DNA of 64,000 nucleotides, taken from positions 124,001 to 188,000 of the forward strand of contig JBBPFI010000014.1 of assembly GCA_037974965.1 (NCBI GenBank). The letters are read 5' to 3'. Position 1 is the first letter of the stretch. Each line of letters begins with the position of its first letter. The notes under the pieces were generated by a model. That model had not been told where the DNA came from, did not search any database, and saw nothing but the letters and a program-made list of their open reading frames with translations. Origin of the DNA: Dacryopinax spathularia. Lineage: Eukaryota; Basidiomycota; Dacrymycetes; Dacrymycetales; Dacrymycetaceae. This document shows positions 5,030-44,574 of this stretch, piece by piece. The position numbers and the translations under genes are program-made.

Positions 5030-5632
5030 GAAGCGTCCACCCCTGTGCCTGTATATCGAGCTAGGACAGAATGAGGTTAATTCGAAGACTTGAATATGTA
5101 TGTGCGCTCTCCATTCCATCGAATGAAAGGCCTGCTGATTTGGGAGTCAGCTGATACGACGGCCACATGAATCGATCGCCATGTGCAATGGCAGTCAACC
5201 GATCTCGCGACCATCTGATTTGAAAGCCCTGCTCCCATTTCATGCGACGCTGGAATCGGATGGCGACCAAATCATTAGGCTACGAGATCAGTCCACTACC
5301 AAATCGGCTGGTTGCCGTTTCATATGGCTTCCATATCACTTCGTCTTCGTTTCGGTCGGACACCATTTCAAATGGCGTCCACAGCGGGTGGAGACCGTTT
5401 CAGGCGGCCTGTACGGTTGAAAAAAGTTCATTATAAAGATGCAGTAACTATAATAATGATATATGCTTCGAATTGGCGCTTGAGTGGGACAATATAAGGT
5501 AAAGATCGTGGAACAAGCGCGACAACAGACTAGGAAAGGCACTTTATCGTGAAGAAAAGGCTGGTATGTAGTTCATGATCAATAATTAAAAGGTGGTATA
5601 ATGTTAAAGAGAGGTACGAGCCATTGTTATAG
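5030..5632. repeat. Second block of degenerate subterminal-type repeats
   Basis: Between about 5150 and 5420 imperfect units recur around CCATTTCAAATGGCGTCC, for example near 5363, with variants near 5213, 5235, 5271 and 5321. Many are partly palindromic. The block follows the decayed gene copy and precedes the minus-strand GRF gene. I see no gene here. Confidence 0.5.
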
Positions 5633-7720: not shown

Positions 7721-7975
7721 CTTGGTATAGGATGAGTGGAAATATGAAAAACTGTAAGGACTGTCACGAGGTGTTGATAATGAAGCTATGAGTTGAAAAC
7801 AGAGCGCTCTAGTCCACACACAGAGACCCTCTTTTTGCTGATGCGCACAGACCAGTTCAGGAGTTTAGGGTGAAATACAAAAACCAAATGTCGAGCTTAA
7901 TATCACACGACCGTTACAAATCCAGAAATTACAGAACGATATGGGTACTGAAGGGAATACATGAAACGTTGGGGA

Positions 7976-11507: not shown

Positions 11508-12843
11508 CTAGATCAAGCTCTCGTTGCTCAGCTCCAGCCCCTCCCACGCCGGGATCGGCCTCTCTGCCTGAGGAGTAATACGGCACCCGTGTCGCCTTTG
11601 CCCGCTGGGGCCGAAGTCGACAACGGGCGTGTGCACGCAGATGCGGTTGTCCCAGAGGACGACGGTGTTCGGAGCCCACTTGACGCGGGCTTGGAAGTCG
11701 CCGCCCTTGGAGACATGGTCAAACAGGAAGTTGAGCAGGTTGTCTGCAAGGGGGTGTTAGCTCAAATATCTGGATAGCAATGAAGGGAGCAGGGACATAC
11801 CGGACTCCTCCTTCTTCAACCCCTCGATGCGCGTCGTGAACTGGCTGTTGACGTATAGCGCCTCCTCGCCCGTCACCGGGTGCCGGCGCACGACCGGGTG
11901 GACATGCTCCACCGGCTCGCGGCGAACCACACCGCCCCTCTTGCCGCTGCGGGAGAAGTTGGCCTGCTCGACGCCGGAGTGGACGGCCTTCAGCGTGCGG
12001 AGGAAGGAGACGAAGGTCGGGGAGAGATGGCGGAGGGAAGCGACTTGCGAGGCGTAGAGGGTGTCTCCGCCCGTGTCGGGAGAAGAGAGCAGGAAGAGCG
12101 TGGTCAGACCGGGCGGCTGGAGCTCGTAGGACACCTATGCGCGCATACAGTCAGTATGAGTGGACTAGAGAGAGCGGAACACGCACATCGGTATGCCACA
12201 CCAAGCTCGTCGTCCTGTCGCTCCTCTCATAGTTGAACGTCGCCTGCCCGTCCCTGTACACCAAGTGGATATGAGGGATGCCCTCCGGATGTCCGCTCGT
12301 CGGGTGAATATGCAACCTGCCGAAATGCCTGCCCCATTCGAGCCATGCATCCCCGCCCGCATTGATGAAGTTGCCCTGGTCGCGGAAGACAAGCACCCCA
12401 CGCCGAGCAGCGAGCAGGGCGACCTGGTCCCGCTCCTCGCTGGTCAGCTTGGTCAGGTCGATCCCGCGGACCTCTGTGCCCAGCTCCGGGGTGAGCTCGG
12501 TCACGCTTTCGGCTGATTGGAGGAAAGGAAGCGGGACGTCCGGGCTTGGGCTGACAGCGAGCGCACGCAGGCCAGGGTCGGAGTGCTCGAACGGCTCGAG
12601 TGGCAGGTAGTGCTCGTTCGGGTCGAAAGCAGGCAGGTATCGTGCGAAGGGGTAAGGCTGTTCTGGCTCTTGCGGGCCGTTCGACGCCGGCTTGGCGGGT
12701 GTGCTAGCCTGGGACGAAGTGCGTGCCTCAGCAGCACGGGCTGCAAGCACAGCTGCTGGCACTTCTGACCCAGCACCACGCAGCTTGAGGGTGGTGTACT
12801 GCGTCGGAGCGGTGTACGTCTCTGTCGCGATGGGAGGGGCCAT
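11508..12843 (-). CDS. TauD/TfdA-family alpha-ketoglutarate-dependent dioxygenase
   Basis: Model: exons 12843-12187, 12133-11801 and 11743-11508, about 408 aa. The family uses Fe(II), oxygen and 2-oxoglutarate, commonly to release sulfite from taurine or other sulfonates; the substrate here is not shown. The iron-binding HxD is WHTD at the end of exon 1. The distal His lies in RRHGCRIT near the C-terminus, with the usual following Arg for the cosubstrate carboxylate. GVLVFRDQ, SYELQPPG and GGDTLYAS are also typical of fungal TauD-like proteins. No signal peptide, so probably cytosolic. It has an extra N-terminal stretch of about 60 low-complexity residues. Intron 1 ends in a perfect 12-bp palindrome. 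Confidence 0.92.
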
Positions 12844-13385
12844 TCTTGTCTGCTGTTAATCCTCGAGAGATCGTGCAAGAGCGAAGGTGTGGTGAGCAGG
12901 TTTGCGTCCCGTGAGCAATCCGATGATATATATTGTTATGAGCGTATTAGCCAGCCGACTCGAAAAGTAGCGCCATCCGCGCCGATGGCGAAATAGGCCA
13001 TTCCCAATGGAGCAGCATAGTAGTGAGGTGAATAGTGAGCAAATGGTGGGAGGACGAGCACGCAATCTCGTTGCGGGATGACCATAACCAAACCAGCGGT
13101 CCCTGAACCGTAAGCGAAGAGCGGAGTGGCCGGCTTCTCGGCATAAGTAAGCACCGCCACTGTTTTCGGAGCCGACGGACTGCAATACCTCCGAGCCTCC
13201 ACCATCACGCCGTCTCGAATTTGTGGTCGAGCTCAATTTGGTCACTGTCCAAGACCGTGGTGTTTTGCCTTGCTCCAACGGTATACCACTGTCAGACATT
13301 CGACATGGGGCCGGAGTACATCTTCCTGTGACCCGACGGACTGAGCTGTACTCTGTACATCTGTGAACCGGCTCCTGAAACCAGC

Positions 13386-19825: not shown

Positions 19826-21664
19826 ATGCTCGCCCTCTCCCTCCTCCTCCTCCCGCTCGCCGCCTCCGCCAGGCTGCAGCCCCAGCAGCGTCAAGCCTCC
19901 TCCTCTTCCTCCGCGCCCGCCGCCTCCGGGTCTTCACCGAGCACCACTGCTCCCCCCGCCGCTGCGACCACCCCGGCGGACACTATTACTCCGACGCTGT
20001 TGAGTACGAACCCGACCGCGGAGCCGTTGAGCAATATCATCGCTACGCCGAGCAGCGATACGACTTATGCGGTGTTTACGAGCTATGCGCCGGGCGCGAC
20101 GCCGCCTATTAGCGGGGCGCCGCCTTTGCCTACCGGTGCGTTCCCTTCCCGCTCCTAACTGCCTCCCGATCCCGAGTCCGCGTGCTCGCCGATAGGATAG
20201 GACAGGAGAGAGGCAGCAGCAGGAGTTATCGTCGTAGTAGCTGGTGCTGACCTCGCGCGTAGGCAATATCATCCCCTCCGACTGGCCCCAGCTGGACGTC
20301 GTCCCCCCCACCAACACCCCCCAAGTCCAACAATGGCTCACCGAGCTCAACAACTACCAGATCCCCAACTTGACCGTGACCGTCCCCGGCGGCTGCCCCA
20401 CAAACCCCGACATCATCGGCGACACCTCCCGCTGCTGGTGGACCTGCGGCGAATGCACCCGCTCGACGGACATAACCACTTGTCCGGATAAGATGACCTG
20501 GGGCCTGTCGTACGACGATGGTCCCAGCCCTTACACGCCCGCGCTGCTGAATTATCTGGAGAGCGTGGATCTGAAGAGCACGTTCTTTATTGTGGGCAGT
20601 AGGGCGATTTCGAGGCCGCAGATTTTGCAGGATGAGTATATGCGCGGACACCAGATTTGTGTGCATACGTGGAGCCATCCGTATTTGACGACGCTCACGA
20701 CGGAGCAGGTGAGTCGCGTTTCTTTGCTTCTGTCTTCCTCCTTCTCCTCTTCCCCCCTTCTGCTCCCATCGCCCTCCTCCTTGGCGTGCATCCTCTCTGT
20801 ATCGTTGTCTTTCGTCTTTCCCTCTTCTGCCTTCTTTCCGTCTCTCGCTATCGCTCGCTCGGATCCAGCTGCTCACGCTCGTTTCGCTCGCGCTCGCAGA
20901 TCGTCGCCGAACTCGGCTGGACACGCGAAGCGATGCGTCAAATCCTCGGCGTCTCGCCCAACTGCATGCGCCCGCCCTACGGCGACATCGACGACCGCGT
21001 CCGCGCGATCAGCATGGCAATGGGGATGACGCCGATCATCTGGACCTCCTATCAGGGCTCGGATTTCGACACGAACGACTGGCATATCCCTGGAGGGCTT
21101 GTGAGCGCTAATGACGTGTTGGGCACGTTCGATCAGGTGCTTTTTCAGGATGCGCCGAGCTTGAATTCGGGGTTTATCGTGTTGGAACATGATCTGTATC
21201 AGCAGACGGTCGACCTTGGTGAGTCCTGCTCCATCAACCATTCTTCTCAAACTTGCTCCCCTTCTCCCTTCTCTCCCCCTCTGTGTCTGTGTCAGTACAG
21301 GAACCCGTGCTAACCCCTGCCCGCAGCGGTCGGCTACGTACTCCCCAACGCCCTCGCCTCCGGAAAATTCCAAATGATGCCCATCATCGAATGTCTCCAC
21401 AAGCCGCTCGCCGACTCGTACGTCGAGACGAACAACAACCAGACCAACCCCCCAGGAGCGGGGGCGACGACGCTGCCAGCAACGGCGAGCGGGGCGACGT
21501 TGATTAGTACTTCTCAGGGGGCGGGGGCGACGGGGAGTGCGAGTGCTGGGAGTGGGGGGAGCGGAGGGAGTAAGAGCGCCGCGAGCAGGGAGGCGGGAGT
21601 GGGGCTGGGGTGGATGGTCCTGCTGGGCGCAGTGGTCGGGGCGGCGGGGCTGGCACTGCTGTAA
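19826..21664 (+). CDS. CDA: GPI-anchored chitin deacetylase (polysaccharide deacetylase, CE4)
   Basis: The enzyme removes acetyl groups from cell-wall chitin to give chitosan, using a divalent metal. Four or five exons begin at ATG 19826. A signal peptide is followed by a Ser/Thr/Pro/Ala-rich stalk. The NodB-type domain shows SYDDGPSPYT (motif 1, catalytic and metal Asp), HTWSHP (motif 2, metal His), RPPYGDIDDRV (motif 3), a WTSYQGSDFDTNDW segment and VLEHDL (motif 5). The C-terminus is a Ser/Gly-rich linker plus a hydrophobic tail (GLGWMVLLGAVVGAAG), a GPI-anchor signal. It acts at the outer plasma membrane or wall, in line with neighbouring secreted products. Introns lie at about 20139-20262, 20708-20899 and 21218-21326. 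Confidence 0.95.
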
Positions 21665-26590: not shown

Positions 26591-29216
26591 CCCCCAGTTC
26601 GCAGCCTGATTACCGTAGCTGGTACTACGCTGCCGCTTCATCGAAGGCTTGAGGGAGGACGCTCGCCCGACTGAGGAGCGTTGTTCGGGCTCGTTTGCAG
26701 GGGAGGCGGTACGCCAGGCTCCAGCAGTCCGAGATTATAGTCCTCAGAAATTTGGTCGTACGACCACAGTCATGAATGGCCATCAAGGCCTTCCCAACAA
26801 AGGGAGATGAAAAGTCCAAGAATTCACGCCAAGATACTGATGGGCAAGGCGGTGAGGCAATGAGGCAGTGCAACATTGCAACATTACTGATGGCAGACTT
26901 TCAGTGAAGCCCCTGCACAATGCACACTTCCCCCGGCAAGTCGAGTGCCGCGGATCGATCTTTTGCGGAAAGCAAAGGGCTGGGAGGGGGAGGTTGGCGG
27001 GTTGACGAGGATGGAAAGACTCAGTGTCAGGGGGATCGAGCGGCGAGCTTGGGGAAGTGCGAGTCGGGAGTAAGTTGTGTAAGATTGGCCAAAGGCGGAA
27101 ACTTCTTGCAGGCCGGTGCGGGGTATGTTGCCCAGTAGGCAGCGCCAGCCAGCTCTTCAAAAGATTCCAAAGATCCCAGATCGCCGACAATAAGACCAAT
27201 CATCCACGGAAGGCCAAAGAAGGCCAAAGAAAGCAAAGAACTCCCAAGAAAGCAAAGACAGCCCAAGACAGTCAGCGTCGGACAAACCGCCAGAGAGCCC
27301 GCGGAGAAACACGTCCAACCCGGATCGAGATCATGCGGATCCTTTTCTGCAGGTCCGTACAGGTTTTCAGCGGTCGGTGACGTGGAGGCCAGTACTTACG
27401 CTGGGTTCTGATCCGCGTAGGAGCCAGAGGCTTTTCTGGCAGTGCAGCCATGGCTGCCGGAAATGCTCGAAATAGACAGGATGATAACGTTCCCCTTCAT
27501 CCATCACTCTAATGATACAATGCATCTTCATGTTCATGTTCATCTTCATCTTAGTGGTGGATCGTACTGTAATAATGAGATGAGGCTGCGTCGGTTGGGG
27601 GTTGCCGAACCGAGCCGACGGGGCGGGCGGGGCGGGCGATAACAGCAGCTGGAGCTTCTTGAGGGTCGAGCTCGAGCTTAAAATAAAGACGGTGGGTCGA
27701 GCGACCAGATTCTGAGTTGGTCATCTTCAGCTGTAGAGCTTCCAGTACAGTATCAAGAGTCCAGAATAGTAACAACAAGCAAGTAGAGAAATAGGAGTAC
27801 TCGGTCATGCCAGTAAGTAGGGCGGCCAAAGCTCGCCGAGGGCGAGCAGGACGAGGTAGTCGAATTGAATTGTCGGAGGGAGCAGGAATCATCTTCCCAG
27901 CGCAGAGAGCGTGATGATCCCAAAGAAGCTCGAGAAGATAAGCCCCTCCCCCTTCTTCCCCCAAGGACCCCAAACACCGCACCCAACCGCCTCCCAAGTT
28001 TTCGCACCGACGGATCAGGGCCCAGGTACAGCAAGGCTGTGCATCCCCCAGGGGAGCCAATCAGCTGCCGTGGGAGGGGAAGCCGAGTGAGATAGCCGGA
28101 TCTTCTGCGCTTTGCGCGGTGTTTGGGGTCCCGGGGAAGAGCAGTGGGAAGTGGGTCGACCGAGCTCGCTTTCAAAGAAGGGTGGTGGGCTGTGGGTGTG
28201 GTCGTGCGGGGCAAAAGGAAGGGAGAGACAGCACGAGACTTTGAGACCTTTGAGATTGTCTGTGCCTTGCCTCGATTGCGTTCACCGCTCCGTCCGTCGA
28301 CAACTGCTCCGTCCTGTTGGGTTTGACAGCCCGCTTGTCAATTACTTGGTCGACACGAAGATCCTGTACTTACTGTACCTTTCCTGGCCTGCGAAATTCC
28401 CAACGCCAACAGTGGGAGGCCGGGTGAGAAGGACGATAGCGTATCGCCGACCCTCCCTCTCAGCCCTATCGCAATCGCAACCGCACCCGCGCGCAATCGC
28501 TCACGACCCATCCCGCCATATCCCTCCCCACCTCCCTCAATTCCCACACCACAGCTTTCAGCTTCCTCCCTTCATTTCCTCGCTGTTCCTGTTCCTGCGT
28601 TCTGCGACTATCCGACGGTTGATCGTATCCCGCTGAGTTGGGCTATTAGCGATAGGGAAGCAGCTGCACCGCCCGCTGAAGAGCTCACACGACGGCTGGC
28701 TTGGCTTGATTTCGGACGACGACGGACGACGGCTGGTTGCACAGCTCGCCGCCCACCGCATCGTCCTCCCTCCTCTCTTTCCCTCCCTCCTCGCTCGACG
28801 CCTCTCCCGCCGCCGTCCCCTCCTCCGATAACGACCTGCGTACCCACCCAACACACCGGAAATTCCTCGTAATCAGAGCCATCCCCCAGATCGTCCATCC
28901 TACGACGAACGACGACGGATCAAGACACCGCCTTCTACCTCTTCAGTCCCTACCATCAGCTTTGCTGATCGCAGCACCGTATCGTGCCTGACGAATCCGA
29001 CAACACCGCCCGCAGTGATTAACGATCATCACCTCTCTTCTCCGATTACTTAGGTGACTGGATCCTGGCTACTGCACCTATCTACCCAGCAACACCTCTC
29101 AACACCGTCCTCGTCCCGATAAACCACCCATCAACACCCAACCCAACATCCATCCGGCCGACTGCCCACGCCGCACCACTTCTCTTCCGCGCAACCTCTT
29201 CCCTCTGTTTGAGAAG
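26591..29216. other. Long intergenic region before the OPT transporter
   Basis: No gene supported. There is a purine-rich run at 27205-27290 (repeated CCAAAGAAGG/AAGAAAGCAAAG), a short CATCTTCATGTT repeat at 27520-27552, and CT-rich sequence at 28740-29216 that probably holds promoter and leader of the downstream gene. The 169-aa minus-strand frame near 27.6-28.1 kb has no recognisable features. Confidence 0.4.
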
Positions 29217-32200
29217 ATGGCCGACCCACCCCTCTCCCCCTCTCTCTCCCCTTCACCTCCACTCCCGGTGCCACTTCCGATGCCACTCCCGATGCCATTA
29301 CCGGTCCACCGTACGACCCCCTCGGCACCACAACATCGACGTCCGTTTATTCGTGCCGATTCGGAGGCGTCGGATCCTCGATCAGGGGTCGGGGCGGGCG
29401 AGAGTGGAAGTGGGAGGATTAGGAGGGGTGGGAGTGGGGCTGTAGGGGGGGAGAGGGTGTTGAGGACTGCTACTGCCAGCGGAAGGAGGAGGAGGAGCGG
29501 AGCTGGAAGCTCGAGAGCCAGCACGAGTCGATCAAGGAGCAGAAGCAGGAGCAGAAGCCGGAGCGCAGAAAGGACACCCTCGGCAGAACGGACGAGGAGA
29601 AGAAGAAGCGAAAGTGCGGACCGAGAACGGAGGAGGAGGAGGAGCAGAGCCAGCGTTGTCAGTTCTGCTCAGAGCGGATCGGGGAGTGAGGAGCTCGAGA
29701 CTGCCACCGAAAGCGACGACGAGAGTGGGAGTGGGAGTGCGTCTGGGTCTGGGAGCGGCAGTGAGGTGGAAACGGAGACGGGTGACGACCTCTCAGTGGC
29801 CTCCCGACCCAGCCGACCCGGTCGACGAAGGAGTCGACAACTCGACCTCCCACAAGACCAACGGCCAGAACGGCGAGCAGCAGCAGAAGGAGCGGAAGGA
29901 GCATCCCTCAGCCGCCCACCCTCCGCCTACTCCCCCACCCCTCCCACACCCAGCACCCCCACCCGCTATACCGCCCGCGCCCTCCTCAGCCCCTCTTTCC
30001 GCACCTCCTCCCCCCACCCTCGACACCCTTATCCCTACCCACACTCGCACCGCGACTCCCGGACGACGAGGGAGAACTCCCCCGCCACCGGTGTGAGGGA
30101 GAGCATAGCCTCTGCCCACCTGAACGATCCAAACTATTCGTTGCCGCCGTCCGGTTTGCCGAGTCATGGGGCCCATATGCCGGCGACGCCTACTGCTAGG
30201 GCTCTGGCACTGATGGATCTGGGGCTGTCGGCGCAGCTGGCGACGTCTATCGCGCAGGCCGAGAATGTGCCTCGGCCCGACTCCACAGGCCCCGGAGGAG
30301 GAGCAGGAGCAGGAGGAGTGGACAAAGACACCGAACTGACCGACGTGGCTTCCGGCTTGGAATTGGGAATGGGCCTCGGCCTAGGCCTAACAGACAACAA
30401 GCTCTCCACCACCACCTCCTCCTCCTGCTCGCCCGACGTGCTCGCCCTCCCCGTCTCGCCCCTCAGTTCCCTAGAACTCAGCACTCTCGACCCCTCCTCC
30501 GGCGCCTACGCACTCCAACTGCACGACCCGAACTGGGACGCCTCCTCCTCCCTCGCCGGAGGGGGTGGGGGGTGGGAAGACGATTCCCCCTACGCGGAAG
30601 TGCGCGCCTCCGTGAGCAACACAGACGACCCGGGCATGCCATGCAACACATTCCGCGTCTGGCTCCTCGGGCTATTCTTCACCATCCTCATATCGGGCGT
30701 GAACCAGTTCTTTAGCTTGAGGTATCCGAGTATCCAGATTACGTCTCTGCTTGCGCAGCTGTTGGCGCTGCCGTTGGGGAAGGTGCTGGAGAGGTGCGTG
30801 AGTAGGAGGGTGTGGAGGGTGAGGGTTTGGACCTGGGGAGGGGGGTGGGGGGTGTGGGAGGGGAGTCTGAATCCTGGGCCGTTTAATATTAAGGAACATA
30901 GTGCGTCTTGCGCTCTTTCTGTCTTTCTCTCTTGCTTCTTTCCTCCCTTCCTGCCTTTCTCCTTTCCTCTTCCCTGCTTCTCCTCCAGGCCGGCGTTCTG
31001 CTCCCCTCCTCCTCTCCTCTCCTCCATCTGTTCTATCGCTCCTGCTCTCCTCGCTTCTTCCAGCCCGCAGGACAAATGCTGATCCCCGACACCCAAACCC
31101 AGCCCTAATAAGCGTAATGGCAAACGTAGTAGCAGGCGGAGCATACGCAACCGAGATAGTCGCCGCCCAACGGACGTACTACAACCAGCAATGGGACGTG
31201 GGGTATCAGCTTTGTTTGGTGTGAGTCTATATTTCTTGCCTACTGTTTAAACTTCGGCTGACGTTTGCCCTCGCCGCTCTCTTTCTCCGCTTGCTTTGCC
31301 CTGCTTCCTCGTTGCGATCGCTTCCCTCGCCCCGATCGCGTTGCTCGTTCCTCCGCGCTCGCTTTGCCCTGCTTGCTCGTCCCGCTCGTCTGTGGCGCTG
31401 CGCTCGCGTTGCTCGCTGACTCGCTTCGCTCGTTCCTTCGCGCTCGCTTTGCTCCTTGTGCTCGCTTGCTCGCCCCTCCCAGCATCTCCTCCCAGCTCAT
31501 GGGCTTCTCCCTCGCCGGCATCTGCCGCCGGTTCCTCGTCTGGCCCGCCTCCATGATCTGGCCCCAGCAGCTCGTCTCCTGCGCCGTCCTCAACACGCTC
31601 CACTCCACCTGGGGCTTCCACGACGGCCTCATGTCCCGCTGGAAGTTCTTCTGGCTCTGTCTAGCAGGGGCATTCGCATGGTACTGGGTCCCCGGATACC
31701 TGTTCACGGGCCTGTCGGCATTTTCCTGGCTGTGCTGGGCAGTACCGGATAACGTGGTCGTCAACCAGCTTTTCGGCACCCAGACGGGCCTTGGGATGGG
31801 CTTACTGACGTTCGACTGGAGTCAGATCGCCTACGTCAACAACCCGCTCGTGAGTCCCTGGTGGGCAGAGGCAAACGTCCTCCTCGGCTTGGTCGTATGG
31901 TTCTGGATCCTCACGCCCATCCTGTACTGTGCGTCCCTCTCTCCCCCCGCCTCCTCACTAAGTAGAACAGCAGCTAACACAATGAGCAGATAAGAACGTG
32001 TTCTACCTCGCTTACCTGCCGATGTCGACAGGAAACGGGTACGACAATATGGCCCAGGTGTATAATGTCACGCGGGTCATTGCAGACGGGGCGTTTAACG
32101 TTACTGCTTGTGCGTCTTTCCGCTTTCCTCATCCTGTTGATTGACGGGCTGACATGTATGTAGATCGGGAATATTCGCCGTTGTTCATCCCGGCTACGTT

Positions 32201-33506
32201 TGCGATGGATTATGGGGTGCAGTTTGCTACGCTTACGGGGACGATCGTGCATACTTTGCGTAAGCTCCCACGCTAATCAACAGAGAACGAAGAAAGCTTA
32301 TGGTTATATGCAGTGTGGTACCGCGAAGATATCATTCGCCAGTTCCGGGCCTCTCTACGGGACGAACCCGACGTTCACTCGCGCCTCATGAGCGCCTACC
32401 GCGAAGTGCCTTCCTCGTGGTACATCGGCATAGGCGTTATCTCGCTCGCCCTAGGGATAGTGACGATCGAGTGTTGGGACACGCAGCTCCCCGTCTGGGC
32501 GTACCTCCTCTCCCTACTCATCCCAATCGTCTACGTCATCCCGCTCGGTATCCTTCAAGCGATCACGAACCAGCAAATCGGCCTCAACGTTGTAACCGAG
32601 CTCATCGTCGGGTACGCCCTTCCGGGCAAGCCGATCGCAATGATGATCTTCAAGACCTTCGGGTACATCACCATGACGCAAGCCCTGTCCTTCGTGGGCG
32701 ACCTCAAGTTCGGCCACTACATGAAGATCCCGCCGAGGATCATGTTCATGGCTCAAACGATCGCGGCATTTGTGGCCTGCTTCGTGGTCGTCTTTGTCCA
32801 GATATGGATGTTTGGCAATATCGAAGGCCTGTGCGAGCCGGGCCAGGTGGATGGATTTACCTGCCCGGCGATTCATGTGTTCGCTACGGCGAGCGTGATA
32901 TTTGGTGGTGTTGGACCGCAGAGGTTGTTTGGACCGCATGGCACCTACGCGCCCTTGATGTGGTTCTTCCTCATCGGTGCGATCCTGCCTATCCCGTTTT
33001 ATTTCCTGGCAAGGCGATATCCAGCAAGCGTGAGTCGTCCTCTGTGCGACCGTATGTATGATGCATATACTGACCTTATTTCGCAGTGGTTCCGCTACGT
33101 GAACATCCCGATCATCTTCGCGGGCACATCATACCTCCCGCCAGCGACAGGAATCAACTACTCCTCCTGGGGCGTCGTAGGCTTCTTGTTCCAGTACGTG
33201 CTGCGTCGGAAGCGCTTCATGTGGTGGTCGAGGTACAACTATATCCTCTCTGCCGCCCTGGATGGCGGGACGGTACTCTCGGGGATAGTGATCTTCTTTG
33301 TGCTGTTTATGCCGTATGGCTCGCAAGGCCTGCAGTGGTGGTGCGTTTTCTTCTTTGCTTATAGGCGCGACTTGATAGGCTGATCTCTTGCGTGCAGGGG
33401 GAACACCGTTTCGGCCAAGACGGCTGACGGGCAAGCGCTGCCGTATTTACAAGTCGGCGGCGATGGGCCCAAGACGTTCGGTCCTGCACCGGGCACGTGG
33501 TGGTAA
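29217..33506 (+). CDS. OPT-family oligopeptide transporter with long disordered N-terminus
   Basis: A multi-spanning plasma-membrane importer of small peptides or peptide-like compounds, driven by protons in this family. The first TM reads FRVWLLGLFFTILISG, followed by NQFFSLRYP and the OPT hallmark NPGPFNIKEH. Later segments ISVMANVVAGGAY, WPASMIWPQQLV, GYLFTGLSAFSWLCW, LTFDWSQIAY and ITNQQIGLNVVTELI are classical fungal OPT blocks, and the end (LDGGTVLSGIVIFFVLF, YGSQGLQWWGN) is complete. Introns lie at about 30899-31114, 31221-31486, 31929-31988, 32111-32163, 32260-32311, 33030-33086 and 33341-33397. Residues 1 to about 470 are Ser/Arg/Pro/Gly-rich with RSRSRS runs, far longer than the usual N-terminus. 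ATG 29217 is the first in frame, but a later start cannot be excluded. Confidence 0.93.
31240..31490 (+). repeat. Degenerate GCTCGC/GCTTTGC-type low-complexity run inside an OPT intron
   Basis: The intron is much longer than its neighbours and built of imperfect units such as CGCTCGCTTTGCTC, CGTTGCTCGCTGACTCGC and TTCGCTCGTTCC. Similar short runs occur near 20865-20898 (intron of the deacetylase), 11117-11150 and 63910-63935. Confidence 0.7.
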
Positions 33507-35139
33507 TTCTGTCTGTGCGGCTGAAGTAGCCAGATTGGAGAGGTGCAATGGCTGCTTTGTAGAGCGGCTGCTTTCTCCCACGCCGCCGCAATATCGGCAA
33601 CCGAGCGGCCAGCTGTAACCGTATTGCGTCTATGCTTGCCACACGCGAAGTCAGCGTCTCCCGAATCCATGGACCGGGCACGCCTCCCTCCCTCATACAA
33701 GCACAAAGCGCTCCCCACTGGCAAGTCCGGCCATCCGCTCGGGATGCATCATCTTGGCGGCGGCAATGGCGCTTCTATCCAAGATCGCTGTTTTGCCGTT
33801 TGAGATCTTGGGAGTGGCCCACCCTCGATGATCCTCGCACGCGTATGAGGCAGCAGAAGCTGAAATCCGACCTGCTCCTTGCTCAAAATGGTTGCTATCG
33901 ACCCTACATTGGCTGTTGTAGCCTCAACCCCTCCCTGACGCAAGTTAATCTCCACCACCTGCCCGCCATTGTGACTTATTCCGCCCTTTCCGACTTATTC
34001 CTCTCTCACACATTCGAAATTTGGGGTCGACTTGGTGTCGCATCATGTACACTACAAGGGTATCTATCTGTTGACGTGCTCTACATAGCCGGCTGAATAG
34101 CGCTCTCTTTCCTCTCCCTTTTACCGTCGATCGTCCGCATGTACTGTATACCCCTCGGCACAGTTGTTGTACTCCTAGACCCGGTACGAAAATCTATTGA
34201 ACAACTCCCTGAGCAGTCGAGCGTGCGAGCCGCATGCCTAACTAGGACAATCGCCGGCGATAAGCAACGATTGAATGTGCGTACGTAAGTTCCTATTGCA
34301 GACATGCCAAATCAGGTAACTGCATATGACAACCCGGGTCTTCCGCGGCGGCGAAGAACGCGTCCCTCGGCGGAGACGACTTGTTGCCCCCTTGCCTTCG
34401 CGATCCTCGTCCGTATTCAGTAGCCAAACAATGACATGCTGAAAACTGCTGCGAGAAGCCGCGACTCTATCATGATCATCCGTTGGGCGGAAACGGATCC
34501 GTCGATACCGCGCGCCGTCGGCCGCCCTTCCGTGTGCGTAATGTCATGTATGGTCCAGTACGATCGCATCCGTTTGCGATGACGGCGGCATCCCCGGTTG
34601 TGCCGTCAGCCACTGTCAGCCAGCCAGTGGCGGACGCACGCTGCCAGGTCCTTGGACTCGGTTGGCTATATCGGGCCAAGTGAGTGACAGAGAGGTACGA
34701 AAACGGGCTGTTCGATTCTGGGCGGCGGGGAGGCCGGTTGGGAATCGGAAGTACCGGAAAGGGAACTGAGAGAGCAACGGCCGGTGTTCTCGGGAGCAAT
34801 GCCATGCGGGCCCAAACGATGGCGAGACCCTTCCTTCTTCCTTCCTGGTTTCTGGCTTGTGAACTTCGCGCCAACACAACCCGCCAGCGCACACCCGCAC
34901 AGAGAAGGAAGATTCGTGACCGGTGTCAGTGTCAGACCCCAATCACATACAACGCGGCCTCATTGCACGCCACTGCTTTCTCCTCGCACAGCCCTCTAAG
35001 TAGAGGGCTGCGCGCCCTGCGCCGTGGGCTCAGGTTAGAGCATCCCGCGCGTAAAATCGTCACCCCCTTGTGTCCAGCCGGAGCCATTAGCCTCCGACGG
35101 ACTTCTTCTCGGCTATGCTTCTGCCGAGCCCGATCCCAA
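33507..35139. other. Spacer between OPT gene and element B
   Basis: No gene, RNA or repeat recognised. The TCYRGA hexamer that fills element B is essentially absent here, which sets the left limit of the element near 35.14 kb. Confidence 0.5.
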
Positions 35140-35231
35140 ATTCTCCAGAAGATCCCCATCAAAACAAACAATGAACCCTTGCGAAAGTACCGACACTTGG
35201 GAACTCCCGACACATCCTCCCTATCTCGCCC

Positions 35232-38200
35232 ATGCACAACAACTCCGGAGCTCATGGGCTGAACCATCCCAACACCGACCGCTCATCTACATCAAGCCAC
35301 TCTGGAACACCAAATGCAAGCTCATCTTCCGGAGGTCGGCGACGAGCCCTCCTCTCTGTCCCACCATCTCGCCGCCCCAACCGACGCAAAACGATGACCC
35401 ACTCCCGTATCATCCGGATTGGTATCGCAAACCAGGAGAACGAGGCGGTCACAGGGGATGGATTCACTCTGGAAGAACTCCTGCAACAGCCAATCCCAGC
35501 CACCCCTCCTATCCGGACTGGACGAAGCCGTACCGATGCATACTCCATCGCTGCTCTCGACCGTCGGGAAGCCGAGCTCCGAACACGAGACCGAGCACGT
35601 TTTGCAGCAGATCCGGAAGAGGAGGTCATGTTGCAGTTTGTGCAGGGGGAGACGATGGACGTTTCCGGAGATGTTGATTGGGAGGATGTCGAGATGCATG
35701 AGGAGGGTGCCAGTGAGGAAGCACTTTTTCACACTTGGCTGGAGATAACGTACGCCTGATGTCTCATTCTGGAGATCTTGTCAATGTCTAACTGTCAACA
35801 GTCGACCTTCCTACCCATCCGGAGAAGGCAGGTACGCTCAAAGAATCCTCCAGCAAGCTTGGGCATGGGAATCACTCATGCCGGATTTGGTGCATGAGTT
35901 CTTGCGATGGAGGTTGCGCGGTGTAAGCCAGCCCTCCAGCACATTACCTCCGGACAGTACTCGAGCCTTCGAACTTGACGTCGTGACTTGGAGTGGCATC
36001 CGGAGGGAAGCGTTTGGCATCGTAGGGACCAGTACCAGTCCCATTCTGATCCTGATGCGGTATGGCTTCCTCGCTTGCACTCCGGAAGCACCGCGAATGG
36101 CCTTCGATGTCCGGATTCTTGAAGTCCACCATCGTGTCCGGATGCGCGCATATATATCCCATGAAGCATGGACCCAAGTTCTGTGCGATTTGCAAGGAGT
36201 AAGTCCTCCATGATTTCCAGATTAATACCATGCTTATCCTGCCTAGATCCCATATTCACCTTCTTTCCGGAAACACGTGGCTGATGCATATGATACATAT
36301 GTATCCCTCCTGCCTCATCTGGAGCAGGATCTGTCAGTTGCCTTCGGTCAGGATAGTCCTGAATGGCGAGTGAAACATAGTTGCCCAGCTTGCGAGTTCA
36401 AGGTAAGCTTTTCTGGAGCATTGATGAGACTTGAACCCAGCTGATTCCATGTAGCTTCAGGATGAACCGCCCCTGCCACTCTCCAGACTCATTTGTGGAG
36501 ACGGTAACAACTCCAGCAAGCGGTTCGCCCATGCCGGACATCAAGACTTGCGTTTATACAAGAGCGATTACATCATTGGTCCGGAAGATGTCGACCGCTT
36601 CAAGGACGATGTACGCCAGCGGCACAGTCGCCCCATCCGGACCAGGGGTGGTGGAGACCCGACAGACGGCCTCCTTCTGGACCAAGCAGGACACATTACT
36701 CTGGATGAATCACTTGCGGCATGTGCAGATAAATGGAAAGCATCACAGGCTCGGGAGACAGGACACACGTTCCAACGAGCTCTAGAGGAGACAGGACACT
36801 TCCTGACAGTCTGCCGGCATGCTTTCATTCGCTATTCTGTTGATATGATCCGGAGTGGTGAGCTGTAAGTGATTCATTCTCTGCATAGCTCTTGCTGAAT
36901 ATGTATCCAGAGCGAAGTACTCTATTGCCAGTCTGGATCGACTATTGACGACTTTGGGTCCGGACATCGGGTTTGGCTATGATATCGGGTGTACTCACTC
37001 TATTACTGTCCTCCGGAGCTCTATTGGCGAACGTGCTCAATCTTCCGGACTGAAGTTCTTTGTTGGGGCCTTCCATGGCTATGCCCACAACAGGCGCTGC
37101 CAGATTCATTTCCACCCTCGCTTGCTCGCCATCGCTGGTCTGGAAGATTTCGAAACTTGTGAGTGGGTGTTTAGCCAGCAAAACAGATCGGCCCACCTGT
37201 TCCGGCACGCCTCTCCCTACCATCGGCACATGACCATGGACTGGTTCTATCGTACATGGGATGCTGACCGGAGAGCAGCATTGGGTGAGTGCTCTGGATT
37301 ACATGTATAAAATCCAATATCCTGATGTGCGGGCAGGAGAATTCCTATTCCGGAATTACCGGCAGGCCCTGATGATCATCCAAAATGATGGTGCCAGTGT
37401 AGCGTCATTATTGCAAACTCTGGACACCACGTACACGGATTTGGAGACTTACCGGAAAGAAGAAATCACCTTCTTTGACTCGCTGCAACATCCTCCGGAG
37501 GTCAACGAGACAGCGGTGCAGTACATGGAGACATTGCGCATGTATGCAGCAGCGGAGTAAGTGCTACTCCGTCATATTTTCTGGACACGGGCTGATCTCT
37601 GCCAGAACAGAATTGCACAGGTCCCGCGCTCGGGAGTTCATTGTCTCCACCCCAGACAACTGGGACGATGAGACAACACGACAAAATGGCTGTGCTCAGG
37701 AACGCAATGTGCTACGTTGTCTCCGGAAAGTAGCCCAGCTTGAAGCAATACTGGTTGACTTCGAACGCACTCTGGACACGGATCGATGGACGCCAGATCA
37801 TCCGTCTTGGCAGCAATATTCCCGAACAATGGAGGAGAGGGAGTTCCAACAAGCTCTGGACCATTTGGAGAGTCTGGTCGTCCAGAGGCTGTTTGAGATG
37901 GAGAAGATGAACAACAAAGGAACAAGTACGTTAGTTTTTCCTGAGGGGAACGACCTGCTGACGTCCGGACAGACTACAAAATGCGTAGCGCAATTGCCAA
38001 AGCGCTACAGGCACGGAGTCACAGCCTCCGGACCGCCCTAAGTGAATACAACCGTCTCGCTGTTATGGTCCAGCCTCCGCGCCCCGTTCTCACAATGGAG
38101 AATGTTCTGGATTATGCGTTCTTGGCTGAATTCAGCTTGCTGCGCCATGGCATTCCGGAACGCGATGCTCGACCTTGGATGCAGCCACGTATTCGGGAGC

Positions 38201-38658
38201 TGGTCAACAAATGGATGCTCGTACGATGTGCCGAACAAGAAATTATCCGCCTCAATGTCGAGATCCAGAGAGTCCTGACCGCTATATCTGAAGAGGCAGA
38301 AGAAATGGCCGACCATCTTGCCCAGGTTACTCAGTCCGGAGACGTAGCACTTGCGCACGAGATGCGTCGCAGGATCGAAGTCCGGAAGCTGGTCGATGCA
38401 AAGGTGCGACACCGTCTGGAGGATATTATGCGCCTCCCTGGATACTCCGGCCCGCAAGAGAAAGGCACTCCCCTTCATGCTCGCACTCGTCCGGAGCTTA
38501 GTGGTGTAGGTGCAGGGTGGACGCCACCAAGAGATGCTCAGGAAGTGGATGATCTTAGCGGCATGGTGGCCGATGATTCTGGACAGTGGGAGGAGGAAGG
38601 ACTTCCGGAGATTGAAGCATTAGCAGAGGCGTTTGGTGCCTCACTCGATGTAAACTAG
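35232..38658 (+). CDS. KDZ transposase (Kyakuja-Dileera-Zisupton class)
   Basis: Exons 35232-35749, 35802-36198, 36247-36402, 36455-36864, 36911-37284, 37337-37556, 37606-37925 and 37973-38658 give 1026 aa with no break. After a disordered N-terminus come WAWESLMPDLVHEFLRW, a RYGFLACTPEAP block and HSCPAC, then DEPPLPLSRLICGDGNNS. Next are HFLTVCRHAFIRYSVDM, GFGYDIGC, GAFHGYAHNRRCQ and EDFETCEWVFSQQNRSA, the conserved core of KDZ transposases. The acidic residues in GYDIGC and EDFE are probable catalytic residues by family knowledge. The C-terminal part (ENVLDYAFLAEFSLLR, EEAEEMADHL) is helical and also standard for fungal KDZ proteins. It should cut and join the element's ends in the nucleus. 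About fifty TCYRGA sites lie in the gene. Confidence 0.95.
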
Positions 38659-39556
38659 CCAACCGGGTCCGATTTTTGTTTTTTTTTTCCCGTGTCACTA
38701 TGTTTCAATTTCCAGAAATACGCGGTGTACATAATGTCCTTATATGCGAATGATACATCCGGACTATAACACTGAGTTACGCAGTACAGCACTTCGTGTC
38801 TGGAATGAAGAGGATGGAGAGAGAAGAACCAAAAAAAAAACTCTCTATCTACGGCACTCTGGAAGGAAGCATGGCCATATGTGTAGTCTCCGGAAAGCAC
38901 CATCGAGGGGAGGAATGACATGCAATAAAGCGAGACTGTCACAGTCAAACTGAAGCAGACACTCTGGAATGTTCGGCTGACGGTTTGAATTCCAGAACGA
39001 AGGTGTCAAAGGGAAGGCAATTGCTTCTGAGACTCAAGCCTAATCCGGACACTGCTCCACAAGACGATTCTTTGAATTCCACATGGACTATCTTCCAGAA
39101 GGTACACCTCGCGTTAAAGTTGATAACAATGTATTCTCAGGAATTGCCGTATATACTTGTAGGGAGTTGCAAGGAATCCCATTCAGGAAAAAAGCGATGC
39201 CAATGCGCCCGAGATTCCACCACCTTTTACCTCTTCCGGACTGAAGGACATACAGGGAGATTAAAAAAGGTAAGCCTCCCCCTTATCCGGAGATAGAAGA
39301 GCGATGGTGAGCATCAATCGCATTGTTAACGCATGGTTTCCGGAATGCAAACACGTGCCCTACGCGCTGTTTCGGTCTATTGTGCTCCCAAATTGCTTCC
39401 GGAGTCCCTAGTCACCCTCTGCGCGTGAGCGCATATAGTCTGCCCCTTCCTCCTTTCGCTCACCCCACCTCACCCGACTTCAACTCATTCCCTTCCTCTC
39501 CGGATCCACCACTCTACCACCACTCTACTTTCCAGACTCTACTCTCCACTCTATCC
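38659..39556 (+). other. Spacer between the two genes of element B
   Basis: No convincing gene. The TCYRGA lattice continues unchanged (sites at about 38711, 38758, 38799, 38860, 38889, 38963, 38991, 39044 and 39094, then 39235-39499). Poly-T near 38676-38689 and poly-A near 38832-38841 flank an unremarkable stretch. A pair of GAATTCCA words lies at 38987 and 39074. 39420-39550 is pyrimidine-rich and looks like the leader of the next gene. Confidence 0.5.
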
Positions 39557-42500
39557 ATGTACAACAGGCTCAGGTCCTCCCGCAGAGGCTCGCACCCTCC
39601 GGACAACGACTCCCGTCGCGGATCGTCCGGAAGAGGTGGACCTCCCCCTTCTGCCAGTCATGCACGCTCCACATCGTCAAGCAGTCATCCGGATGAACCG
39701 CCACCGCCTGCATATGAGTCGACTCGTGGTACTCCCGCTCCTTCCGGACCAGCAGCTCCTGCAACTCCTGGCCGTTCCGGAGCACGTTATATGGAGGCTA
39801 CACCCGGGCCAGCAACGCCGAACCCATCCGGAGCATCGCGTCGTTCGGAGTCACCGCTTGCTGGTTACCACTTCCCCGCTGGTTCCACCTCCGGACCGAC
39901 TCCCACCATGCCCATCGCTCCTGTAGCCCGCAGCGCATCCCGGATGTCCATCGATCCTCCCTCTGGAGGGATGCAGACCCGGTCGTCATCCAGAATGTCG
40001 TTGGGCCCGTCGTCCCAACGCACAAGTCCGGCCCTCGCGCCTGCTCGAATTACATCTCCCTCCCCTGGTCCCTCTGGAAGTGCACCCACTGGACCTACTT
40101 CCGGAGGCTCCTCTCGCCCGTTCGTCACGGCCGCTAGCCTCCTCGCCCAGCAGACCACCACGCGGTCGGCATCGTCTTCCTCACAGTCCGGACCGCCATC
40201 AAGCTGGCACAGAGGTCCAGAACCCACTCTTCCGGCTGGCGTGCAAGAGGTTGCCAGCCGCGTTCCGGACCCCTCGTATGCGCCGACATACCTTCCTCGT
40301 GGTGTTTCTGGACCACCCCCTCCCCCTCCTCCGCCTAGAGATGCTCCTTTCTCTGGACCCCGCTTCGATTCTCAGGAGACAATGGTGATGGTTGGTGGTG
40401 TCCTGACTAAGACGGTTGGGAAGGAGAATAGGCCTACCCCTTGGGGACCTCCGGAGGCTTTGGCGAACCGGTATATGACTGGCTGGAACGTGAACAACAA
40501 GCCAGATCAGGATGTCGACCAGATCGCCCTCACCCCTGTTCCGGACAGTCGCCGACTTGTGAACGCTCAGACTGGCAACCACAATCCGGATCAGCTGTAC
40601 TTTGACGCACCTGTGAGACGCGGAGGTGGTGGCTTTGGTGAGTCTCCGGATCTACCGCATATCTGCAAGTCCTGACGTTGAAAGCAGTTTTGCCACATGT
40701 CCGCTTCTTTGACCATCGTCCGGAACAGAAGGGGGGACCGCTCCCCATTATGTTCGGGAGCGTAATGGGCTTTCCTTCCTTATATCTGGAGCAACTGCCT
40801 ACGAACCACAGCAAGCTCCCTCCTCCTATCCAGAACCGTTTCAGCACCGCCCTATCCGGAGATCCTTTCCGCATCATGCGTGATCGAGTTGGCGACACTC
40901 TCCCCATTATGCAAGGCTCCCGAAATGATCGTCTGGATGCACCGGGCCTGAATCAACATCCTCACCGTAAGATCCGGAGCCCAGATGTGCGCAAGTTCGC
41001 ATATAAGAATGATTACATGACTGGGATTCTGGATTTCGTACGCATCTCCCTCTGTCCGGATGAGCTGAACTGACGATGTATTCCAGAGTACTGCGGCAGA
41101 TCGGATGTTGTGCGAGGGCTTTCACTTCCACTTCATGGCTACGACAACGAATGGTCCGGATGGCCATCCCGATGCATGCACCGTGATCTCCAGAACTGTC
41201 TGGGAAGACAGTGCCATCATGGAAGCTCTGGAGAAGATCAATCGCCTATTCCGGACCAAACTGATGTATGCTGCTCGGGACCGGAAGACCTTGAACATCG
41301 ATGGCTTCAACAACGAGGGCACCCTCTTTCCGGTCCAGACACATGTTACCGACGAGGAGATCCAGAATATCGGCGAAGAGTTCCCGACATACGAAGACCC
41401 TCCTCCCCCTCTCCCCTCTATTTCCAGAGCAGATGTGCAGCCCCCTGGATTCCGGATGTTGCAACTGCCGGAGGATCCTCGTCAATGGCCTGTCATTCCT
41501 TCTGAGATTCCTCACGCTGTCGACACCTGGTTCGAACGCCGCACGTTCCCTCATGTCTGGACAGACGCCTTCTATCGCAATGGAATCCGGACGGTGTATC
41601 GCCTCTACTTGTTTGTTCACCCTCGCGAATGGAGGGCTCGTCTGGACGCTGCACTCACGACTTATGGAAGGGACCACGTCCCGGTCAAGCACGACCTCTC
41701 CAGTATCCTGAACCCGATGTTCCAGCACAAGTGTATGGAATGGGCGGATTCCGGAGTAGTTGGGATGGAGGGTGGTATCTTTCTCCCTAGTGTTGCTGAC
41801 TACGATCCTCTGGAAGAGACCCGCACGTCGTAGATAACTTACCTGAATTGCTCTCCGGAATACGTGTCTTAGTATGCAATCAAATGCATTGTTGTTGTCC
41901 CACGTGCCTGATCTTCCCATCCCTTCTCTCTTAGGGTCCGGACATCACTGTGCCACGTACTCCTTCTCTGGAGGTCGACACCTCTACTACATTCTCCAGA
42001 CATATCGCCCATCACCTGGAGCAGAGCTGATTCGTTTGCACGGCATGGCTAGCCCTCCGGAGGATAGTGCAGCCCCTTCCGCATGGTGCGCCAGAAAAGC
42101 GAAATGGCAAGAGAACATGGTTCGACAGGACTCTGCTCATCAGCACGCTGTCCGGATTGTTGCTGCTCTTGAGAAGAACATAGAGCTAGCCAGTGCCGCC
42201 TCCGGAGTCTCTGGCGATGCCCTCCGTGAGTATATCTTTGGCTTCCAGAATATACCTGGCTTCCGGAGGAAAAGGGCACCCAATTTGAAGAACATTGCGG
42301 TGCACTTGACCAGCGTGGAATGGGAGAAAGCGGGTGAGTGGCCAGTCCAGAATTGTGGGCATACAGCTGATCTGTGCGACCAGGGCGCGAATTCGACCTA
42401 CACCTGGCAAAGGTGGACTGGGAAGAGCGCCTACAGCAGCTCCGGACAGACGAGGCTGCAGCTGAGGCGGGACGGGCTGCCCTTCTGGCACATCGGGAGG

Positions 42501-43340
42501 CCGAGGAGCATCGTCCAAGAGTGTCCAGAAAGGCACGTGAAGCGGACCAGACTGCAACAACGCTGGCCCTCCAGAGAGAGGTGAGTGAGTGACTTACGTG
42601 TTGGGGACCATATTGATCTGGAAGTCAGGCACATGCTTTCAATGTCCGGACTAGGGGTCACATCTTTGGGTTCACAGTGAAGGGCGATGCTCTGGATTAT
42701 GGGGCAGCGCAGTTCTTCGGCGACGAGGTGGGAGAGGCATTCATCCGCCAGGTCTTCGCCAAGTCCGGACACGAGCTGGCAAATGAATTCGAGGTCTTTG
42801 CTGTGCATGGGGCAAGAGGTAAGGCTGATTCTTGCTCCTTGACCTTTGTGCCTGAAGTCCAGAATAGGTGTGGCTGCTCGTTTGGTGGACCAGAAGGTGG
42901 AATTGAAAGCGAGCATCCGGAAGATACTGCTGAAGGAGCTTCGTGTGTACTTCCTGCAGAATGTCCGGACTGAACTGACTCGTGCTACAGGTACTGCTGC
43001 TGGTAATGAGAAAGCGGTCATGCATTATGCCAGATTCGGGAGAAATGTCGAGGATGGGTACGGTGTAACTCTGGAGGGCTGGCCTGGAGGGGTGATTGTG
43101 AATCCATCGACCATGGGAATCACCGAGTTGAAGGTTTTGAAAAGTGCTTTATTAGAGGGTACCTGTCATTTCCGGACTATGTCCCCAGCAGACAGGCTCC
43201 GGAGACAGAGGGAGCGGGCTCAAGAAGCTGAAGAGAGTCGGTGCAAGCGGGCAAAGCAGAAAGGTGTCCGGACATTGTTGATTGCCTCTCATCCAGATGG
43301 GGGACAGGACACATCTCAGAGCTCGGAGGAAGTGCAGTAG
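39557..43340 (+). CDS. Accessory protein of element B, family not recognised
   Basis: Start ATG 39557. Exons 39557-40637, 40688-41037, 41087-41829 and from 41873 onward join in frame, with further introns near 42333-42382, 42580-42628, 42820-42867 and probably one more before 43000, to stop near 43338. The first 350 residues are Ser/Pro/Gly-rich and disordered, with PPPPPPPP near 255. The remainder is globular and includes LPIMFGSVMGFPSLYLEQ, HAVDTWFERRTFPHVW and an acidic/helical coiled stretch (DWEERLQQLRTDEAAAEAG). It ends with HYARFGRNVEDGYGVTLEGWP and a basic tail. The GYGVTLEGWP element recurs in agaricomycete transposon-linked proteins as far as I recall. No catalytic motif can be assigned. 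Its co-location and the shared lattice imply a role in the transposon's life cycle. Confidence 0.65.
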
Positions 43341-43505
43341 AGTGTTAGCCGGACAAAAACTGGGGGTTCGTAGTAGTCCAGACAGCGCCTGTTTATTGTC
43401 TTTATTATCTACATATGACTATGGTACTTCTTGCTTCCGGAAGGGCATGTGCGCATGATTCATGTTCCCACGCAATCGTTCCCTTCCCACGCCATAGGTC
43501 CGGAG

Positions 43506-44574
43506 GCAGTGGTCGGCTGATAGGGTCTAGCACAGCCTGCTAAATGTGCAGGCTGGATGAGCGCTGGACAGGGTTTTCAGTCGCGGCATGCTCTAAGTGG
43601 AGGAATCGGCGCACGTCTCTGCAGGCTCTAATTAGGGTCTCCTGCCAGCAGACACAGGTGTTGCACGCTTTGGGACAGGCACACACTCAAACAAAAACGG
43701 AAGATTGGCCCTTCTTCTTTTTTTGTTTGGCCCCTCACTTCTCACCCACTCAACAACCGCAACCACACTCCCGCTTCGGGAACCACGCCGCGCTTCTTCG
43801 TCAATGCCACTTTTTCGCACAGCCTCTTCCTTCCCCCGGGCCCCCGCTGCATTCGTCCCCCCAAATCATTCGCTCACAGCAGGAGCGTGACAATGGACCG
43901 TAATAGGTTCTCGTATGTATAGAAGGCCGCTTCCTGCGCAAGGTCAAGACCTCGGCTCGCGTGGCAACGACTACCCTATCGGCCCCTTGGCTTCTCACAT
44001 GCCCTCTGCGCCTGCACAGTCAGTACATCATCAGTGGTCTCAGCGGTCCCGTCTCTCTGGCATCTTCCTCTCATCTACTCATCTCCGATCCTCCAGCTCA
44101 GGACGGTACGTATACTCAGACCATCCCCGTACCACGGACTTGTTGTCCTCCCTCGGCCTTCAGCACGCGGAGTGGCCCTAATAAGGCGGGCGCGCTCTAC
44201 AAAAGGAGTCGACTAACCTAGTTCGAAAGCCCGGACGCCTCCGCGGCATCATCTCATCATCATCCGGGGCGCGAGTTTTGTTTGCCCCCCCCAAACAACT
44301 AGGGCAGTCGCATTAACCTTTGCCCCACTTGCTCGGCTCTCGCTAGGCCAACAAAATCCAAACCTAGCGGTCAGGAGTCACAACCTCCGCAGCAATCACC
44401 GCTTGGTTTCCCGCCGGGCCTTCTGCTGACCTTTCGTCCCTCCGCTCGAACAATAAAGCCCCCCTCGCCGTGGAAGCAGAATTCGATCCTCTTCCTCTTA
44501 TTGTTCTCCCTCGTATCGCCTTTTTCGCGCGCTTCTCCCTCTCTCGTCCTTCCTCTGCTCCACCACTGCCAGCT
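43506..44574. other. Right flank of element B and promoter of the BRCT/Myb gene
   Basis: The hexamer lattice stops. A weak candidate for a tiny gene starts at 43892 (MDRNRFS, then a GTATGT donor and an acceptor near 44017), ending near 44216 or 44219, without family resemblance. CT-rich sequence before 44575 is probably the leader of the next gene. Confidence 0.35.

Follow-up and report, generated by a model that had tools for sequence, protein, structure and literature searches.

A dense, spaced TCCGGA-type word covers the body of a KDZ transposon in Dacryopinax spathularia

We analyzed a 64,000-nucleotide stretch of the Dacryopinax spathularia genome (assembly GCA_037974965.1, contig JBBPFI010000014.1, positions 124,001 to 188,000 of the forward strand; here, referred to as the window, with positions counted from its first letter) and found that a KDZ transposon at 35144 to 43504 is covered throughout by the palindromic word TCCGGA and its close variants. 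The lattice follows a simple rule for the word itself, keeps a minimum spacing, uses both strands alike, and has similar density in exons and noncoding DNA. We lean somewhat toward reading it as a set of arrayed sites at which one dimeric, sequence-specific protein binds; the protein would cover the whole transposon, would most likely be encoded by the element, and would mark the element as self.

Results

We counted TCYRGA sites in a single copy of the element and used the rest of the same window as background. The element contains 138 sites (76 TCCGGA, 35 TCTGGA, 26 TCCAGA, and 1 TCTAGA), a density of 16.5 sites per kb, and the remaining 55.6 kb of the window contains 48. Outside the element, 78 overlapping segments of 8361 bp held a mean of 8.5 sites and a maximum of 17, in agreement with a preliminary description of this DNA, which reported about 137 sites against about 8 expected by chance. 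The ratio of inside to outside density was 59 for TCCGGA and 11 for TCTGGA/TCCAGA. Coverage of the body is uniform, at 14 to 20 sites per 1045 bp, and the edges are sharp, with the closest outside sites at 32797 (2.3 kb to the left) and 47900 (4.4 kb to the right). When we examined the four top words among 6-mers and 8-mers in each 4-kb segment, no other dispersed word stood out in this way; the remaining strong 6-mer peaks in the window came from tandem arrays or from runs rich in C, A, or CTC.

The sites are not confined to one kind of sequence. Exons carry 16.1 TCYRGA sites per kb, introns with their junctions 19.9, and the spacer and leader 16.5; within exons, the sites are distributed over the three codon phases as 30, 35, and 40. 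These data support two earlier claims, that the motif extends over the entire transposon body and that the constraint acts on DNA rather than on protein. All 13 predicted introns carry a site, which was equaled by 1.4% of shifted layouts (mean, 9.6 introns). Shuffling of synonymous codons, named beforehand as a possible refutation, did not reproduce the density: over 2000 runs per gene, the shuffles gave a mean of 8.8 sites (maximum 20) for gene 1, where 45 are observed, and 11.4 (maximum 22) for gene 2, where 60 are observed. Markov models of orders 1, 2, and 3 fitted to the region (200 runs for each order) gave means of 12.6, 22.3, and 49.0 sites, respectively, compared to the 138 observed.

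Each site consists of two halves, one a perfect TCC and the partner TCN. Only single changes at the two central bases of TCCGGA are clearly enriched in the element. The forms TCTGGA/TCCAGA occur 61 times inside, where about 5 are expected, and 35 times in 55.4 kb outside; weaker variants are also enriched inside, with 17 TCCTGA/TCAGGA (3.6 expected) and 13 TCCCGA/TCGGGA (5.1 expected). Changes of the outer bases showed no clear enrichment in the element (seen/expected: TACGGA 0/3.2, CCCGGA 1/5.1, TTCGGA 2/3.8, TGCGGA 2/5.7, ACCGGA 4/2.7, and GCCGGA 8/5.4), nor did words with the center altered in both halves. The hexamer class TCYRGA proposed in the preliminary description therefore holds for TCCGGA, TCTGGA, and TCCAGA, but TCTAGA (1 seen, 0.8 expected) falls outside the set. 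The asymmetric variants point either way, with counts of 35 versus 26 for the strong ones and 16 versus 14 for the weak ones, which fits recognition of double-stranded DNA.

The variants also bear on the role of CpG, which is absent from 62 of the 138 sites. In codon phase 2, there are 19 copies of TCTGGA, which changes Pro to Leu, but only 2 of the silent TCCAGA, a skew that fits the protein choosing among acceptable words. The observed/expected CpG ratio is 0.80 in the element, 0.98 between 10 and 35 kb, 0.94 to the right of the element, and 0.85 in the lattice-free stretch from 1 to 10 kb. The share of imperfect forms is higher in introns (10 of 14 sites) than in exons (43 of 105; P = 0.044). 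Some CpG decay may add to the variant set; as the source of all variants it was rejected, since the codon phases speak against it.

Gaps between sites average 61 bp with a coefficient of variation of 0.46, compared to approximately 0.98 under random placement, and only 3 gaps are shorter than 25 bp where random placement gives 45. With TCTAGA left out, the histogram of the 136 gaps has a peak at 26 to 28 bp (18 gaps), a dip at 35 to 43 bp (6 gaps), and a broad distribution from 44 bp onward. A dead-time model that forbids gaps below 24 bp predicts 10.1 gaps in the peak (P = 0.013) and 21.8 in the dip, a bin in which none of 5000 runs was as low as observed. The TCCGGA sites at 36110 and 36137, 27 bp apart, exemplify a close pair (36110 to 36142). 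Weak variants respect the same distance. Of these 30 sites, 25 have no strong site nearer than 24 bp, compared to only 2627 of the 6865 positions that are separated from a site by over 5 bp. The earlier wording that sites are evenly spread is correct in that they are more regular than random, but it understates the order, with its scarcity of gaps below 24 bp, excess at 26 to 28 bp, and scarcity at 35 to 43 bp. We claim a minimum spacing, a preferred distance of 27 bp, and an avoided zone. We do not claim a regular lattice, because the periodic signal has P = 0.053 under the dead-time model; strict periodicity of 26 to 27 bp was rejected on this spectral test, and the correlation over all pairs fades within about four steps.

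Close neighbors also tend to turn their perfect halves toward each other. In adjacent strong pairs at 34 bp or less, the perfect half points toward the partner in 24 cases and away in 9, whereas in wider pairs the counts are 36 and 52 (Fisher's exact test, P = 0.002; counts tallied by hand from the site table). Considering only the nearest neighbor within 34 bp, strong asymmetric sites, when only strong sites count as neighbors, have the perfect half facing it in 23 cases versus 8 (label permutation, P = 0.006), and weak sites in 14 versus 5 when all neighbors are counted and 11 versus 6 when only strong neighbors are.

Other kinds of order were sought in the site positions. Helical phasing was rejected, as none of the periods of 10 to 11 bp that we tried exceeded a rough threshold. 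The same was true of the periods of 147 to 200 bp tried, which together weaken the suggestion that the lattice is a phasing signal for chromatin. Lone half-sites placed 27 bp from isolated sites were likewise rejected, with no column signal at offsets 27 to 32. Separately, G is in excess at offset 13 from isolated sites (41 of 103).

Identity between the flanks of neighboring sites is 26%, and random pairs give 25%; the closest match among all pairs only equals the best of the random control. One short tandem array (39509 to 39553) lies inside the lattice; the flanks are otherwise unrelated, so the sites do not look copied, and duplication was rejected as their source. Judging from these flanks, each site probably arose by substitution.

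The element contains two genes, both on the forward strand. Their models are predictions rather than transcript-derived structures, and the first exon of gene 2 was set by hand. Gene 1 (35232 to 38658) encodes a KDZ transposase of 1026 amino acids in 8 predicted exons; its reading frame is open, and each of its 7 predicted introns carries a site. The catalytic KDZ domain is complete in the predicted splice model (Pfam PF18758, E = 2e-66, profile positions 2 to 217 of 217), which supports the earlier identification of a KDZ transposon. The domain comprises residues 367 to 611 of the model, at approximately 36480 to 37262, and its codons hold the starts of 12 sites, including the single TCTAGA. 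Upstream of it, an exon with a CxC1-like zinc cluster (35802 to 36198, forward strand), detected in a Pfam scan, is a candidate DNA-binding part. This match is marginal: the exon open reading frame at 35749 to 36213 scores 29.5 bits (E = 8.8e-7) against a cutoff of 26.9, and the spliced model, at 25.1 bits, falls below that cutoff. The lattice continues through the intergenic spacer (38659 to 39556) into gene 2 (39557 to 43340), with 7 predicted exons, 1141 amino acids, and at least one site in each of 6 predicted introns, of which the GC-AG intron at 41823 to 41934 is doubtful. The gene 2 product is rich in Ser, Pro, and Gly at its N terminus and basic at its C terminus. Pfam scans detected no TET/JBP gene, only one chance-level match to DB_JBP1 (E = 0.11).

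The ends of the element are less clear. A weak inverted match of 54 bp (score 29) pairs a candidate left terminal repeat at 34996 to 35049 on the forward strand with a candidate right one at 43582 to 43635 on the reverse strand, and a score as high was reached by 13 of 1471 pairs of random segments drawn from the window. CA..TG ends accompanied by a 7-bp duplication were absent from the stretches searched. The search for target site duplications, which in KDZ transposons measure about 7 to 8 bp, returned many matches of 7 to 9 bp, such as chance would produce, with none favored over the rest. Because neither terminal repeats nor target duplications are convincing, the limits of the lattice are not proven to be the limits of the element; of the earlier claim that the two begin and end together, the sharp edges of the lattice stand, and the coincidence with the element is plausible. 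Just left of the lattice, at 34989 to 35010, two arms of 10 bases around a 2-base center form a palindrome (CAGCCCTCTA AG TAGAGGGCTG) that overlaps the left repeat candidate.

A second KDZ-type element occupies positions 1 to 10600 of the window on the minus strand, with its domains between 7.9 and 9.9 kb: CxC6 (E = 2.3e-24), CxC5 (E = 7.1e-25), and an incomplete KDZ domain (E = 1.9e-4), whose 21.6 bits fall short of the 26.6 cutoff. Its 10.6 kb hold 11 TCYRGA sites, of which 2 are TCCGGA; this is background density. The lattice is therefore neither regional nor common to all KDZ elements, and we rejected both possibilities. The second element carries tandem arrays of an 18-bp word of its own (CTCTCGCCTTCTACACTA and related forms), in one orientation at 388 to 667 and 3494 to 4154 and in the other at 6928 to 7056, 9378 to 9457, and 10271 to 10324. 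In open frames, these arrays encode Glu/Gly-rich or Ser-Thr-Gln-Leu-Pro-Pro repeats. Repeat pairs in the stretches 998 to 1676 and 4347 to 4565 (998 to 1052 with 4347 to 4401 at 85% identity, 1592 to 1676 with 4481 to 4565 at 73%) suggest a duplicated gene around the arrays. Elsewhere, the window contains ordinary-looking host genes for a TauD-type dioxygenase (12151 to 12855), a polysaccharide deacetylase (20241 to 21029), and an OPT oligopeptide transporter (29058 to 33383).

We also searched viral contigs. A KDZ pattern scan returned 68 loci, and a scan for three spaced TCCGGA words returned at least 80, of which 12 were inspected; sites were counted in 148 loci in all. Across these 148 contigs, 80 of which had been picked for three spaced TCCGGA, the maximum was 7.4 sites per kb over the length examined. 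Three contigs have many dispersed TCCGGA words with short gaps, at no more than 7.4 sites per kb: L079 (41 in 11.8 kb, many gaps short), L065 (30 in 13.3 kb, likewise), and L073. Contig L042 has no gap below 25 bp and 14 of 26 to 28 bp, but we take it for a coding repeat because 22 of its 23 sites share one frame and 91% of the gaps are divisible by 3. A tblastn search of the 148 viral loci with both spliced proteins returned nothing at E values up to 1. The gene 2 exon had no match in phages, and a sequence search of the PDB gave one chance-level match.

Discussion

A palindrome used in both orientations, a minimum spacing of about 24 bp, a preference for 27 bp, and perfect halves turned inward in close pairs are the trace expected of a dimer with side contacts. 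Among the suggestions in the preliminary description, protein binding sites offer the best account of the word, its spacing, and its symmetry as we read them from the sequence. Each site would then present two inverted half-sites (TCC/GGA), one perfect and the other variable at its inner base. A bound dimer would have a footprint of approximately 24 to 27 bp, and neighboring dimers would make contact through their facing sides at a distance of about 27 bp, with additional sites placed wherever coding permits. We infer that sites were acquired singly, by substitution under long selection that included changes adjusting the proteins. The binder would most likely come from the element, either gene 1 with its N-terminal zinc cluster or gene 2. 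Its coat would mark the element as self, and the purpose that we place first is anti-silencing, in which the element is kept open against the host as by VANC (see below); a role in assembling or protecting the element during transposition, or in self-avoidance, would come after that. That selection rewrote a whole DNA transposon, exons included, into a sterically spaced template of two-half sites for a cooperative coat telling self from host is a proposal on which we are evenly divided.

Several results weigh against the coat reading. Pfam scans identified no DNA-binding domain fitting TCCGGA in the element's proteins and gave no match at all for the gene 2 product, and structure models of both proteins, built without relatives, were useless (mean predicted local distance difference test scores, 34.7 and 38.7). 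An order-4 Markov model of the region gives a mean of 112 sites and a maximum of 140, and so reaches the 138 observed; order 4 already contains most of the word, and such a result is expected if the word is the signal. The bins used for spacing and the test of facing are post hoc, as both were set with the data already seen. Periodicity of about 26 bp, with P = 0.0002 under a gamma model, is not established in strict form under the dead-time null. Over all distances, facing shows no significant preference (strong sites, 36 versus 24, P = 0.16; weak sites, 17 versus 13), so the effect is confined to close pairs. Neighbors at 27 bp are a minority, and a continuous filament is therefore not implied. 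Finally, viral and prokaryote contigs yielded no relatives of the KDZ protein or gene 2 in scans with single-protein queries, which reach close relatives only; with a single copy and no relative in the contigs searched, conservation of the sites is unproven.

Any binder would fit the motif and the spacing, including a transcription or chromatin factor that the element recruits from the host, and the lack of a recognized element protein with a fitting domain speaks for such a factor. However, the word is at background elsewhere in the window, in host genes as in the second KDZ-type element, so a host factor would have few other sites here, and we consider it rather unlikely. We find it improbable that a cytosine methylase or demethylase acts on TCCGGA, with the variants arising by CpG-to-TpG decay. 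In favor of this idea, the word is a CpG palindrome whose variants are mainly the two forms with a single C-to-T change, and the double form TCTAGA is not enriched; the lower CpG ratio of the element relative to the 10- to 35-kb stretch and the right side, and the commoner imperfect forms in introns, point the same way. However, a CpG mark or plain deamination fails to explain a set in which 62 sites lack CpG and the choice of variant follows the codon, with the amino-acid-changing form preferred over the silent one in phase 2. Enrichment of TCCTGA and TCCCGA is not CpG deamination, the lattice-free 1- to 10-kb stretch is also low in CpG, and neither the minimum spacing nor the facing is expected of such a mark. 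The earlier suggestion of a modification enzyme, where it acts on CpG, is weakened by the same CpG-free sites and spacing.

Nearly all sites could fall in transcripts, where UCCGGA might serve as an RNA signal, but asymmetric variants in both orientations and a lattice that is alike in introns, leader, and spacer make this very improbable. A self-avoidance code, in which the bound lattice blocks self-insertion or marks a full-length partner in transposition, would need just the uniform body coverage that we observed; its anatomy is identical to that of an anti-silencing coat, and we give it little credence. Hardly credible at all is a by-product of coding (Ser-Gly or Pro-Asp/Glu repeats), of tandem duplication, or of composition. 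TCYRGA does spell 17 of 18 Ser-Gly pairs in gene 2 and 8 of 13 in gene 1, and a coding route to dense TCCGGA exists, as in-frame repeats account for the density in 4 of the 12 inspected viral contigs (L011, L021, L042, and L052, chosen like the others for three spaced TCCGGA), where 84 to 91% of the TCCGGA gaps are multiples of 3. Yet the introns and spacer already contradict this explanation, as do the similar densities in three codon phases and the far lower codon shuffles; no viral contig counted exceeded 7.4 sites per kb, against 16.5 in the element, and the unrelated flanks speak against duplication.

If the coat reading is true, a mark at full density in catalytic exons means that selection for DNA recognition has competed with, and partly shaped, the transposon's proteins. 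How transposon machinery separates its own DNA from host DNA over kilobases would become testable, and the word, the two-half rule, and the spacing together provide a sequence-only signature to seek in other fungal elements.

Dispersed or repeated short words are known from other systems. In the Ac/Ds and En/Spm (TnpA) transposons, a protein of the element binds subterminal repeats that hold a short word several times; those repeats are confined to the ends, whereas the lattice here spans 8.4 kb of body. The DNA uptake sequences of Neisseria and Pasteurellaceae are short self-marking words dispersed inside and outside genes throughout the genome at about 1 per kb. They are untied to any one mobile element, and we know of no comparable spacing rule for them.

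The founding KDZ paper is reportedly Iyer 2014. As far as described in the source passages, Cryptococcus KDZ1-3 have a CxC1 domain, lengths of approximately 9 to 11 kb, and terminal inverted repeats of 139 to 241 bp (PMC12810828), and the Kyakuja families have CA..TG ends without repeats (PMC12730594). Judged from these passages, a KDZ transposase is common to our element, Kyakuja, and KDZ1-3, and CxC1, marginal here, is found in KDZ1-3 as well. The main text of the Kyakuja paper contains neither "subterminal," "hexamer," nor TCCGGA (PMC12730594), and in the Cryptococcus paper the sole TCCGGA is a restriction site (PMC12810828); the passages on Kyakuja and on KDZ1-3 mention no internal word. 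Within the open-licence literature, we came across no account of a motif spanning the whole body of a KDZ element, which does not show its absence from print.

The nearest system that we found, by analogy, is VANC/VANDAL of Arabidopsis. In the passages describing it, the VANC21 motif YAGTATTAY is mainly noncoding and lies in one orientation in tandem repeats (PMC5735166, PMC10398659), through which VANC targets grow (PMC5735166). As described there, the likeness lies in a dense, short, family-specific word, which VANC, an element-encoded protein, reads with density as the cue and an element-wide effect. In a VANC-type system, methylation is removed by the protein that binds the word. Such a word is present here and is special within this window. 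By the same descriptions, the word here differs in being palindromic, in occupying exons, in having unrelated flanks and a minimum spacing, and in not forming tandem repeats apart from one short array; exons, at 16.1 sites per kb against 16.5 to 19.9 elsewhere in the element, show no VANC-type preference for noncoding DNA. The 18-bp word of the second element, possibly a family-specific VANC-like array, comes closer to the VANC pattern.

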